This document shows positions 25,940-31,563 of a DNA stretch of 64,000 bases, one piece after another. Position 1 is the first letter of the stretch. Every line of letters begins with the position of its first letter. The stretch is taken from assembly GCF_010894455.1 (NCBI RefSeq), contig NZ_JAAIXY010000023.1, positions 49,827 through 113,826 of the forward strand, written 5' to 3'. Source of the stretch: Myxococcus eversor (lineage in GTDB: Bacteria > Myxococcota > Myxococcia > Myxococcales > Myxococcaceae). The translations under genes and the position numbers were made by a program. The notes below the pieces were generated by a model, which saw only the letters and a list, made by a program, of their open reading frames with translations, did not search any database and was not told where the DNA came from.

Positions 25940-27817
25940 ATGACGCTACAGGAGTGCGTGGCGAAGCTCGTCTATACCGCCGCGCTGGCGACGCTCGGCG
26001 TGGGGTTCGGCTTCCTGTTCTACAACGAGTTCACCAGGGTCTGGCTCGACAAGAACCTCTACATCGGCAAGTTCGAGCTCGTAGACATGGGGGAGGAGAA
26101 ATCCAGCGAAGCGAAGTCCTTCCCACGACTGGTGGCCACCTACCACAAGACCTTGCTGTACCTGCTGCGCCAGGAGGCGCAACGATTGACTACCGCCCAA
26201 AGCGGTTCCTCGGCTGCCGGGAACGTGGCGGGAAATACACCCCTGCCAGACTCCACCTTCCTGCCCAAGGAGGTTGATCCTCTCAACATCGCCGCCAGCA
26301 AGTTTTCCGAGGTTGAACTCACCATCCAGGGCGTCAACGTCACACAGTTGCTGGCCAAGATTCGTCAATGGGTCAGCACACCCAACGAACTCGTGGGAAC
26401 CGTGCAGAAGAGTAGCAGTGGGGTGCGGGTGGAGGTGAATTGGAAACAGGGGCCATCGCGAACGGCCGCCGGTCACCCCATCGATGGCCAGACGCTGAAC
26501 GTCTCCGGGCAGCCCGATATCGAGAAGGCGGCGTTCCACGTTGCATGCGGCCTCATCTGGGCGCAGGGGGCGACAAGCGCGGAGGACCTGGCAGCGGTGT
26601 CCCGTGCCGAGTTCTGTGGTTGGGCCGAGGGATGGACAACCTACATTGATCTTCGCGAGAGGAGCGCCACGTTGAGCGGGCTCGGCGCGGACAGCATCGA
26701 AACGATGAAGAAGCTCCGGGCCTTCTTGAACCGGATGGTGGATGGCTCGGCGACCTTCCCCGAGGTCTATCGCCTCCGAGCAGATGTCATCGAGCTGCTT
26801 CCTCCGGAACAGAAGACCGAGCAGGACCTGGCCCAGGCCCAGGGCGACCGGACGAAGTACGCCCTCATGAAGACCCAGACACCGTCGGCCAAGGCCGCGC
26901 TGGCCGCGAGGAAGACCGGACACGAGGCCTTCAAGGTCATGGCCCAGGCGCGTCCCGCGCTGCGTCTCCAGGGCGACGCGATCATCGACCCACTGTCGGA
27001 CACCTGGAAACAGGTGATGAAGTCCACCCGAAGCGAGCCCTTCACCATCAGCCGCGCTACCGGATCCCTCTCGATACCCATCATTGACGACCCCCAAGAC
27101 CGCAAGGCGTACCAGACCGCATTCGCCGTCGCCCCCAACATCATCATGACGGTGGGGCACAAGATTCCGCGCGAGATGCTCGGACACGAATCCCCCGTCT
27201 CCCTGCCAGCACAGTCCTGGGAGTTCACCTTCGACGACAACGCCAGAAGCCCCATGGAACACGTCCATCACGTCACAAGGATTCTCTTCGCGGTCGACAA
27301 TACTCCCGGGTATGGTGGTCTTTCCTTCGCCCTGCTCGAAATCGCAAGCCACGACTCGTTGCAGCACCCCTACGTGAAGCTGGAGTGGAACAAGGACGCG
27401 GTCAGGGCCCACCTCGAAAAGTATGTCTATGTCGTCGGGTATCCTGTGTCGGGCGGTAATTTGCCTCAAGGATTCATCGACCCTCTCCTGGGTAACGAGT
27501 TCAGCACCAAGCGACTGATGCCAGGTCGGCTGCTGTCGTTCACGCCGCAGCGTGGACTTGAGCACCGACAAGTCCGAAAGCTGGTCAGCGATATCAGCAC
27601 CACGCATGGTGTCTCGGGCGCGCCACTCGTGGACATGGAGAGTGACACGGTCCTGGGACTCCATATCGAGGGGCTATGGAAGGAGAACGAGGGCAAGTTC
27701 GCCTACGCCTTCGCGATGCCGGACTTGCTCGACATCCTTCCAGAGTCCGTGCTGCAGATAATCAAGCCCGGCACCATCCGTGACATCCCGACCCAACTCG
27801 GTCAGGCGTCACCCTGA
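25940..27817 (+). CDS. membrane-anchored trypsin-like protease, atypical triad
   Basis: A 625-residue protein with one N-terminal transmembrane helix (9-28) and no cleavage site. Residues 35-370 have no family I recognise. Residues 385-605 look like a V8/trypsin-like domain: IIMTVGHKIP gives His407, THGVSGAPLVD gives the nucleophile Ser559 in GVSG, and HIEGLW follows as in chymotrypsin folds. Where the catalytic Asp is expected (DxALL) the sequence reads LSFALLEI, so the Asp is missing or moved (Asp453 is nearby). Wobble positions are less GC-rich than in neighbours, suggesting recent acquisition. It is alone between a divergent helicase and a convergent Cys-rich gene. Confidence 0.6.
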   Translation: MTLQECVAKLVYTAALATLGVGFGFLFYNEFTRVWLDKNLYIGKFELVDMGEEKSSEAKSFPRLVATYHKTLLYLLRQEAQRLTTAQSGSSAAGNVAGNTPLPDSTFLPKEVDPLNIAASKFSEVELTIQGVNVTQLLAKIRQWVSTPNELVGTVQKSSSGVRVEVNWKQGPSRTAAGHPIDGQTLNVSGQPDIEKAAFHVACGLIWAQGATSAEDLAAVSRAEFCGWAEGWTTYIDLRERSATLSGLGADSIETMKKLRAFLNRMVDGSATFPEVYRLRADVIELLPPEQKTEQDLAQAQGDRTKYALMKTQTPSAKAALAARKTGHEAFKVMAQARPALRLQGDAIIDPLSDTWKQVMKSTRSEPFTISRATGSLSIPIIDDPQDRKAYQTAFAVAPNIIMTVGHKIPREMLGHESPVSLPAQSWEFTFDDNARSPMEHVHHVTRILFAVDNTPGYGGLSFALLEIASHDSLQHPYVKLEWNKDAVRAHLEKYVYVVGYPVSGGNLPQGFIDPLLGNEFSTKRLMPGRLLSFTPQRGLEHRQVRKLVSDISTTHGVSGAPLVDMESDTVLGLHIEGLWKENEGKFAYAFAMPDLLDILPESVLQIIKPGTIRDIPTQLGQASP

Positions 27818-27881: not shown

Positions 27882-29084
27882 TCACGGCGTCGCCGCGAAC
27901 ACAGCGCGCTGGTGGGCGGGGCGTGGGGTCGTCCCGCTCATGAAGTCAGGCAGGCATCCCCAGCTCTGAAGGTCTTCGGACACCGTCGTGCAAAGCCACC
28001 CCACCGAGCAGGAGCGCAGGTCCTGTGGGTCGCAGCTCGAAAAACACGCGCTACCCGTGGGCCCGCCCAGGCCGCAGACCTGGCCCGAGGAGCAGCTCTC
28101 CGAGCGCCAGGAGTCACAGGCCGACGCGCAGAACCGTCCCGCGCGTCCCGCCCTCCCCCTGACGATGCAGTTCTCCTCCTCCGAGCACGGCTTCGCGTCG
28201 GAGCACTCGTCCACGACGAGGTCCAGACACTGGAAGCCTCCTCCATTGAGCGGCGCGCATTGCCCGCCCTCGGAGCATCCCTGCTTTCGGCAATCAGGGA
28301 GGCAGGCGGCGCCACTGGAGCTCTCCTCGCAGGTATGTCCATCCGGGCAGCCTCCCGGCTCTCCCGGCACACAGAGAGCTCCGCAGCGGTGATTGATGCA
28401 GTACAGGTCCTCCTCACAGGCCTCCGCGCGACTCGTCGGCAACCGACTACACGATTCTCCCGCGCGACGAGTTCCCGCCTGGAGACACCTGCGAATCACC
28501 GGGCCCGGAACTCCTCCCGCGGCGACGCGGCAAACGAATCCGTCAGAGCACTGTGAGTCATCCTCACAATCGCTGGCCGCGCACTGGAAGGCGCCCTCTT
28601 TGTAATCGATGACGCACCCCTCCCCCTCTGGGCAATCCCCGTCGGTCGCGCACTCCCCACAGCGGAAGGCCCCTCCATCCGTCAGGGAGCAGTCCAGCAG
28701 TTCACCCGGACGCGAGGCCCGGCTCTCATCCAGAAGCGTCGCGACCTGTTGAGCCCGGTGGCCATCCTCTTCTTGGATGGGAGTAAGAGAGGTCCTCGTG
28801 ACTTCTGGCCTGGCGTCCGCGACTCGCGTGCTCGTGTTGACGTAGGTCATCGACACGGCTGAGACGCCCTCGGCCGCGTCCTGGTGGACTCCCAGGGCCC
28901 GAGTGGCTGAATAGCTCTCGGAACGCGGCTCCTTCGGCATGCCCGCGACACACGCCGTTGCCGTGACGGCCCCACAGGTTCCTGATTCAACCGACACCAG
29001 CATCCAGAGGCCGTTGACCAGGAAATAGGAAAGCAACGCGACCCCGACAAAGACGCCCCCAGGAACAGCGATGCGCCCTAGCAT
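27882..29084 (-). CDS. membrane-anchored Cys-rich repeat protein
   Basis: A 400-residue protein with an N-terminal transmembrane segment (about 9-32) and a large extracytoplasmic part. Residues 140-390 hold about 40 cysteines in repeated CxxxxxCxxGxxC modules (ATDGDCPEGEGCVID, CEDDSQCSDGFVCR, CPDGHTCEES), the Dickkopf-like disulfide knots common in Myxococcales. ATG 29084 overlaps by 7 nt the end of the micropeptide gene at 29078-29242, so the two are probably translationally coupled. Function unknown; a binding or structural role at the envelope is inferred. Confidence 0.65.
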   Translation of the reverse strand: MLGRIAVPGGVFVGVALLSYFLVNGLWMLVSVESGTCGAVTATACVAGMPKEPRSESYSATRALGVHQDAAEGVSAVSMTYVNTSTRVADARPEVTRTSLTPIQEEDGHRAQQVATLLDESRASRPGELLDCSLTDGGAFRCGECATDGDCPEGEGCVIDYKEGAFQCAASDCEDDSQCSDGFVCRVAAGGVPGPVIRRCLQAGTRRAGESCSRLPTSRAEACEEDLYCINHRCGALCVPGEPGGCPDGHTCEESSSGAACLPDCRKQGCSEGGQCAPLNGGGFQCLDLVVDECSDAKPCSEEENCIVRGRAGRAGRFCASACDSWRSESCSSGQVCGLGGPTGSACFSSCDPQDLRSCSVGWLCTTVSEDLQSWGCLPDFMSGTTPRPAHQRAVFAATP

Positions 29085-29242
29085 GGGCCACAGCAAAAGC
29101 CGGTGCTGCCATTGGGCAGGCACGTGCAGGGATAGCAACAGGCCACTTCACGGCTCTGCGCATAAGCAGTGCCCGCCCCCAACGCGGCGGCGGTACCAAC
29201 AATCATCACCCAACGACGCAGTCGAGCACTGAGAGTCGCCAT
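29078..29242 (-). CDS. secreted Cys-rich micropeptide
   Basis: A 54-residue pre-peptide. Residues 1-28 form a classical signal (basic RLRR, hydrophobic core, AYA cleavage motif). The mature 26 residues hold seven cysteines in a near-symmetric pattern: CCxxC-x-C, eight residues, CCxxC, with both CCxxC units reading CCxPC. This could be a disulfide-rich peptide or a metallothionein-like metal ligand. ATG 29242 is preceded by GGGAG. Its stop overlaps the start of the Cys-rich membrane protein gene, suggesting one operon and a joint function. No known family was recognised. Confidence 0.6.
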   Translation of the reverse strand: MATLSARLRRWVMIVGTAAALGAGTAYAQSREVACCYPCTCLPNGSTGFCCGPC

Positions 29243-29676
29243 TTCATATCTCCCTCTTGCGTGGCATCCTGGGAACCCCTTCCCTGGATGTTTGGACAAC
29301 CAAAGCAACACAGCAGATAGCCCGTCCCTCGACCCAAGGCATTACCTCTCAGGAGGTACGACCGGAGCCCTCCCAAACCAGCGCGTCTTCGGAAAACGAG
29401 CCCAAGTAGCGCGGAGAGGGCAGCGCACGGAGTCGCGGAAAGGAGGCATTCTCGCGGGGAGCGGCAAGCCCGAGTGCGGCGAAGCGGGTCGGCCCTGACA
29501 ACGGAACATCTGTCATCGCGACCGACAACGTCAGCTCACGCATGCATGGCCCCCCGAAGAAGCAGGTCCACGATACCCATGTCGCGGAATACGTCTCTCC
29601 CTCCACGGGGGTAGAAACCGGCCCGAACGGGGCTCCGCCCTCCCAGACCGGGCGACTGCACCGTTAAGCTGGGGAC
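29243..29676. other. 434-nt divergent intergenic region
   Basis: The region separates the micropeptide operon (minus) and the gene at 29677 (plus). It is less GC-rich around 29270-29345, the likely promoter zone for the minus operon. An 85-codon minus-strand frame at 29349-29606 has no recognisable features and is not called. No RNA gene or repeat is evident. Confidence 0.4.
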
Positions 29677-30966: not shown

Positions 30967-31563
30967 TCACGCCCCCGGCGCGGGAACGGCCTCACCCACC
31001 GGCGCCAGGGCCATCCGGCTCCAGACGATGCGGTACGTCGCCGCCGTGCCGTCGAAGGCGATGGGCTCCACCAACACGTGCCCTGCACCCGCGACGCGCA
31101 GCGACTCCGCCAGGAAGCCCGCGGAGAAGTACGGGTTGTCCGCCGCCACGTCCTTCATCCACAGCGTGGCGGAGCCCTCGGCGGACTCCTCCACCCGCAC
31201 CTCGTTGAAGTTGTTGCCGGCCCTCACGTTGTAGGGCACCCGCTCCAGCGTCCTCATGGGCCCCAGCCGCGTGACGAGCGACAGGCTGGCCCGCCCCACC
31301 GGTGTCTGCCGGAACCCCTGCAGATAACGCGCGCCCAGCGCCAGCCAGGCGTCCTTCGCCGGCAGCGACGGGAAGATGTCCTGCACGGCCACCCGCAGGA
31401 ACGCGCGCCACTGCTCCAGGGAGTAGGCCGGTCGCAACCGCTCCGACAAGTCCAGGCCCACCCCCTTCAGCCGCTGGCGCCCCTCCTTCGTCAGGTAGGG
31501 ACCCAGGGCCCTCACGAAGAGGGCCTCGACGGACTGCGCGAAGATGAGCTTCTCGGGCGACAT
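30967..31563 (-). CDS. DUF2378 family protein
   Basis: A 198-residue protein of the DUF2378 family, a paralogous group found almost only in Myxococcaceae. Typical segments are IFAQSVEALFVRAL at the N-terminus, GARYLQGFRQTPVGRA in the middle, and a beta-rich end with NNFNEVRVEE and GTAATYRIVW. Function is unknown; the fold could bind a small ligand. No signal peptide, so cytosolic. It follows the hybrid kinase on the same strand after 69 nt, a possible operon. Confidence 0.8.
   Translation of the reverse strand: MSPEKLIFAQSVEALFVRALGPYLTKEGRQRLKGVGLDLSERLRPAYSLEQWRAFLRVAVQDIFPSLPAKDAWLALGARYLQGFRQTPVGRASLSLVTRLGPMRTLERVPYNVRAGNNFNEVRVEESAEGSATLWMKDVAADNPYFSAGFLAESLRVAGAGHVLVEPIAFDGTAATYRIVWSRMALAPVGEAVPAPGA

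Follow-up and report, generated by a model that had tools for sequence, protein, structure and literature searches.

A small exported peptide gene and its cysteine-rich partner

The DNA analysed here (the window, 64,000 nucleotides in full, from Myxococcus eversor) carries on its minus strand a 54-codon frame, translating as MATLSARLRRWVMIVGTAAALGAGTAYAQSREVACCYPCTCLPNGSTGFCCGPC, whose end overlaps the start of a gene for a Cys-rich protein. The features of these two genes are as follows.

29078–29242, minus strand: small exported peptide gene, 54 residues, stop codon included (sequence and profile matches)
29250–29256, minus strand: purine-rich ribosome-binding site GAGGGAG, 5' of the ATG of the peptide gene (sequence; all 8 Myxococcus-branch upstream regions retain GGG)
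29159–29242, minus strand: signal peptide of the peptide, residues 1–28 (LRRW...TAYA), with a signal peptidase I site between AYA and Q (sequence; A-x-A conserved in all 24 aligned relatives; model helix 3–24)
29081–29158, minus strand: mature peptide, residues 29–54, with seven Cys (C35, C36, C39, C41, C50, C51, and C54)
27882–29084, minus strand: Cys-rich partner gene, 400 residues, overlapping the peptide gene at 29078–29084
28998–29057, minus strand: N-terminal hydrophobic helix of the partner, residues 10–29, a signal anchor (model helix 10–29; sequence)
28707–28997, minus strand: low-complexity linker of the partner, residues 30–126, poorly conserved (pLDDT below 50 for 27–124; alignment A2)
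27954–28691, minus strand: partner ectodomain, C132 to C377, with 34 Cys (Cys count; pLDDT 70–88 in most blocks)
28659–28691, minus strand: extra N-terminal Cys pair, C132 and C142, of peptide-type partners only (alignment)

An earlier note on this DNA had described a signal peptide that releases a 26-residue mature peptide with seven Cys, as well as a 7-nt overlap with the gene of a membrane protein, and both are borne out by our reading of the frame. Here, 26 residues follow AYA, with CCYPC and CCGPC among the seven Cys, while the overlap is ATGCTAG, so that the partner gene starts inside the peptide gene. On the evidence of sequence comparison, we consider the small frame confirmed as a real gene, since the E-values of its profile matches, its pN/pS ratios, and an upstream divergence that ends at the ribosome-binding site together place it beyond chance. 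In fact, selection on the frame is purifying, as in each of the 16 pairs tested synonymous changes outnumber replacements (pN/pS ratios of 0.06–0.46), and the DNA 5' of the gene diverges fast, with conservation beginning at the GGG of the ribosome-binding site and the ATG. The peptide is neutral to acidic in charge, and comparison with Pfam, NCBIfam, PADLOC, and PHROGs returned no significant family match.

As for the partner, the earlier note's membrane protein of about 40 Cys is indeed Cys-rich, though the count is 36, with 34 of these in the ectodomain. Exactly 34 Cys are found in each of 30 peptide-type ectodomain ORFs, and the number stays the same whether the accompanying peptide has seven, six, or five Cys or has decayed. 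No mixed disulfide between peptide and partner is needed given this constancy, and we dropped such a linkage as a candidate on the same grounds. Few residues precede the N-terminal helix, and the protein has no cytoplasmic output domain. Moreover, some relatives have AxA-like sites, and we are unsure whether the helix is cleaved or kept as an anchor. The ectodomain was modelled, at modest confidence (pLDDT mostly 70–88), as a chain of small disulfide modules. Structure searches with it found no significant relative (best Foldseek E-value of 0.025, and no VIA-align Z of at least 2), nor did PDB sequence searches for the module give a significant match; its weak structural and profile neighbours are extracellular Cys modules of the EGF, Dickkopf, and TNFR kind.

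The peptide family and its linkage to the partner

A single-sequence search of 96 Myxococcaceae genomes gave close copies of the peptide within the genus and weaker ones outside it, from which we built an alignment (A1) of 24 loci, comprising matches with a locus at E-values up to 3e-4 plus L029, with weaker rows excluded. The corresponding partner alignment (A2) holds 23 of the 24 partners, L022 being excluded because it has no clear start codon. With a profile, 31 copies of the peptide were found in 26 of the 96 genomes (E-values from 7e-27 to 7e-8), including two more copies without a locus that entered at this later search. Extending the profile search to 195 genomes of the phylum added no further genome to these 26, all of which are Myxococcaceae. 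Named carriers of the module, from a scan of named genomes (8 loci), are Pyxidicoccus caerfyrddinensis, Hyalangium versicolor, Archangium lansinium, and Archangium violaceum.

The invariant columns of A1 are the start, the A-x-A site, five Cys, and one Gly. CCxPC, which the earlier note had proposed as the pattern by which relatives might be sought, turned out not to be a family signature, as it is limited to the Myxococcus branch; elsewhere the arrangement is CxxCxPCGC...CC....C, with ECWxCxPCGCxxDGGxxxCCxxxxC as the conserved pattern outside that branch. A literal search for CCxPC would therefore miss most members, and we dropped it once the alignment had made this plain. Losses and shifts of the Cys are informative about their pairing. 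C2 and C6 are jointly absent in the peptides of L108 and L113/L117, which are placed apart in the partner tree, and C1 and C7 are both shifted two residues inwards in the Myxococcus branch, while C4 alone is absent in L021/L119 and L114. From the co-loss and the co-shift we infer C2–C6 and C1–C7 disulfides, hence C3–C5, with C4 free, which would make the peptide a nested hairpin. The C1–C7 pairing is weakened by the L113/L117 peptides, in which the segment before C7 is shorter and C1 has not moved. Consistent with a nested hairpin, an AlphaFold model of the peptide, albeit of low confidence (pLDDT of 62), has strands at residues 34–39 and 48–53 with a turn between them.

That the small frame would be conserved beside the membrane protein in relatives was a point on which the earlier note could be checked, and it held: 30 of the 31 peptides lie directly upstream of a gene for a 34-Cys partner on the same strand. 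Viewed from the partner side, and taking the 37 Cys-rich rows scoring at least 120 bits, 31 have a peptide upstream, with two tandem copies in genome G042 sharing one peptide. These tandem genes (L108) are identical over the core and follow a gene for a five-Cys peptide. Among the six Cys-rich genes that lack a peptide, L115, L106, and L124 have remnants of a peptide gene, none was seen at L120, and two are fragments. As these remnants are visible, the pair at L115, L106, and L124 was ancestral, and the small gene has since decayed. The sole peptide without a Cys-rich partner, at L114 in genome G002, has six Cys and is followed, in the partner's place, by a 510-residue lipoprotein-like frame that has no match in NCBIfam. 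The flanks of L114 are the same two genes that border the complete pair L105 in genome G007.

When the neighbourhoods of 29 loci were compared with the window, several unrelated contexts emerged, and the pair was their only constant element. No recurrent neighbour was found across contexts, except for a trypsin-like protease gene at 6 of 8 Myxococcus-branch loci. In the window, this is a gene for a membrane-anchored protease (25940–27817, plus strand; Trypsin_2) convergent with the pair, and its homologue follows the pair at those six loci; in the copy from genome G063 (L095), other residues stand, by eye, where the catalytic His and Ser would apparently be expected. Also in the window, a DUF2378/TIGR02265 protein, of a family of unknown function, is encoded at 30967–31563 on the minus strand.

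A sister branch with small lipoproteins

The weaker partner matches revealed a sister group, consisting of proteins with an N-terminal helix and a 32-Cys ectodomain. Here, the 32 Cys align one to one with those of the peptide-type ectodomains, while the extra N-terminal Cys pair is present in 23 of 23 peptide-type rows versus none of 17 sister rows. Directly upstream of the sister genes is a lipoprotein gene of about 70 residues, with a lipobox (...GCP) followed by DRAxHKD and four Cys (alignment A3) and with no conserved CxC. A crude filter for small exported Cys genes was positive at 35 of 48 sister-branch ORFs. Examining the others by eye, we found for 12 ORFs that the small gene was whole in two, partial or broken in seven, and not recognisable in three, with one more ORF lying at the edge of its locus. 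As a control, the same kind of filter was positive for 3 of 419 other neighbouring genes; in this run, where the search region was set from the predicted gene start and not the domain start, only 15 of 46 Cys-rich genes were positive.

A profile of the lipoprotein gave 178 matches in 47 of the 96 family genomes. Comparing the first 122 of these 178 with the 150 listed rows of 286 partner matches, 107 were followed, after a median of 5 nt, by a listed 32-Cys gene, and inspection of the other 15 revealed a 32-Cys gene or a fragment of one downstream, making 122 of 122. The 286 partner matches come from the 32-Cys profile, which also detects 34-Cys proteins, and are spread over 52 of the 96 Myxococcaceae genomes, with copies per genome reaching at least 19 in counts that are lower bounds, 25 candidates per genome having been scored. 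At a looser threshold, the profile matched in 55 of the 195 genomes of the phylum, all of them Myxococcaceae. There was no family match in ten genomes from the same genus as the window (nine of 9.0–9.5 Mb and one of 10.3 Mb). In the window's own genome, two tandem sister modules lie about 1 kb past the end of the window (G000:C40:114805-117634; L125). Three genomes have sister-type partners (L196, L197, and L200) that end at about the same point after 24–26 Cys, and these are perhaps a genuine shorter subtype.

In a tree of the shared 32-Cys core (99 rows, some of the sister rows having been entered twice), the 33 peptide-type ectodomains group together and the 64 lipoprotein-type ones lie opposite, with support of 100/100. 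Two long deep branches, L120 and L171, fall near the peptide side. At L171 (genome G014, 1293–2652), a third kind of small lipoprotein (SCWEEHC...C...C) is encoded 10 nt upstream of the deep-branching ectodomain gene. The type of small partner follows the ectodomain tree, which supports joint inheritance of the two genes. The pattern is also compatible with binding between the small and large proteins, although it is no proof of this, as linked inheritance alone would give the same result. Taken with the tree, the peptide pair is one variant of a general module in which a small exported Cys protein is encoded with a Cys-rich anchored protein. That the pair is a functional unit is strongly supported at the level of the genes, given a linkage kept across many contexts and a small-partner type that matches the clade of the large protein.

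Relation to known systems and proposed working

In searches of Pfam, NCBIfam, PADLOC, and PHROGs, the partner has no family match besides one below the cut-off, to TIGR04201 (Myxo_Cys_RPT), the Cys-rich repeat of TraA and other myxobacterial proteins. The likeness is that both consist of exported Cys-rich repeats in myxobacteria. The matches are weak for the window's partner (E-value of 0.001, 19.1 bits) and its paralogue (E-value of 0.0005, 20.2 bits), and lie below the NCBIfam curated score of 25 bits. Unlike TIGR04201 proteins, the partner has an N-terminal anchor, 32 or 34 Cys, and usually a coupled small gene, with no PA14 or MYXO-CTERM match. Similarly, Dickkopf_N, EGF-like, and TNFR Cys modules also hold short strands by dense disulfides, but the Dickkopf_N match reached 16.9 bits against a gathering score of 25, and other Pfam Cys-rich matches were weak and found in at most 3 of 17 members.

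A parallel in gene order is SitA/SitI (PMC5562445), which is likewise myxobacterial and multi-copy, and which the sister branch resembles in having a lipoprotein gene directly upstream of the partner. SitA is described there as a polymorphic lipoprotein toxin whose C-terminal nuclease domain varies, and SitI1 as SUKH-like. Our modules differ from these in having conserved small proteins, of about 25–60 residues in their mature form, and an exported Cys-rich protein as the partner. Moreover, the window's peptide has an AYA site and no lipobox, and the sister lipoproteins are conserved, with no match to a toxin family. The bacterial cis-defensins, such as xanthusin-1 (PMC11561630), are also small, secreted, Cys-stabilised myxobacterial peptides, but none of 12 peptides tested fits the Cys expression published in it, C-x(2,18)-C-x(3)-C-x(2,12)-C-x(4,17)-C-x-C. 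No PADLOC profile for a known anti-phage defence system matched any of the four proteins compared, and among open-licence papers none on the two-gene system was found by title. Both families look undescribed, though the idea of a small exported protein with a co-encoded membrane partner is already known.

Our best reading, which we hold with about even confidence, is of a two-gene envelope module in which the small protein would adopt a disulfide-hairpin fold after export and dock on its partner's ectodomain. Its sequence marks the peptide as exported by Sec and cut after AYA, and its translation is probably coupled to that of the partner through the gene overlap. Once oxidised in the periplasm, it would form the hairpin with the nested disulfides C1–C7, C2–C6, and C3–C5 and leave C4 free, while the 34 Cys of the partner ectodomain would be joined in 17 disulfides, giving small Cys modules one after another. 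The peptide may then serve as a ligand-like subunit that docks, outside the cytoplasm, on the ectodomain of its own partner, for which the extra N-terminal Cys loop of peptide-type partners is a plausible site. The same role would fall to the small Cys lipoprotein of the sister branch, whose lipid would bring the complex to a membrane. Candidate roles for the complex are surface recognition, competition, and envelope tethering. Against docking are the large genes that occur with a decayed or missing small gene (L115, L106, L124, and L120, as well as the seven partial and three unrecognisable cases among the 48 sister ORFs), from which it follows that the large protein can persist alone. The peptide at L114, which lacks a Cys-rich partner, also speaks against it.

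The earlier note had offered the pair as a peptide–receptor, toxin–immunity, or metal-handling module, and what stands of this is the functional unit, on the strength of linkage and clade match. The main rival, a serious one even if we judge it rather unlikely, is that of toxin and immunity, by which the small exported Cys protein, once released or passed on by outer-membrane exchange, would harm relatives, and the producer would be protected in its envelope by the anchored ectodomain, which would bind and neutralise the toxin. The gene order, with the small gene first and a coupled partner second, fits this, as do the many copies per genome (up to 19). Moreover, all 122 small lipoproteins examined are accompanied by a large gene or fragment, while large genes have often survived their small ones; such dependence of the small gene on the large is an asymmetry to be expected if a toxin requires its immunity protein. 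Lipoprotein toxins of myxobacteria that are transferred by outer membrane exchange, with the immunity gene directly downstream, are in fact described (PMC5562445). However, at L199, L205, and the second copy in L208 a whole small gene is paired with a broken large one (possibly by sequencing error), L114 has a peptide and no partner, the peptide is conserved under purifying selection and neutral to acidic, and the four proteins compared with PADLOC had no match.

A released cell–cell signal with the partner as its sensor seems improbable to us. Although the secreted peptide does lie beside an ectodomain with weak EGF-, Dickkopf-, and TNFR-like neighbours, this reading is weakened by a partner that has no cytoplasmic output domain, with no conserved neighbour to supply one, and by the fact that most small partners in the sister branch are lipoproteins and hence non-diffusing. 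More improbable is a dedicated thiol–disulfide helper for the folding of a many-disulfide partner, as might be suggested by the CxC motif (CGC or CTC) of the peptide, with one Cys seemingly unpaired, and by its close association with a 34-Cys protein. Here, C4 has been lost in two peptides, and in one of these cases (L021/L119) the 34-Cys partner is intact; no CxC is conserved among the lipoprotein partners, and the large protein is retained where the peptide has been lost. We give least credence to metal binding by the two proteins, for which Cys content is the one argument: both are exported to where Cys are normally oxidised, no metal-related neighbour recurs, and the loss of Cys as a pair (C2 and C6, twice) or singly (C4, twice) fits disulfides better than a metal cluster.

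Returning to the docking of a small protein on its partner's ectodomain, a wider form of it can be put forward more tentatively. The modules may constitute a multi-copy envelope system specific to Myxococcaceae, with a core Cys-rod anchored in the inner membrane and at least three kinds of small exported Cys partner (the nested-disulfide peptide, the DRAxHKD lipoprotein, and the third lipoprotein in G014). The small partner would set the location and contacts of the rod, and the copies would be a repertoire for cell contact or competition. A secreted 26-residue peptide with seven Cys and a putative nested disulfide hairpin would be an unusual bacterial scaffold. Moreover, if the pair works as proposed, the 286 partner matches in 52 of 96 genomes would represent a large set of two-protein modules, as yet unnamed, at the surface or in the periplasm of the Myxococcaceae.
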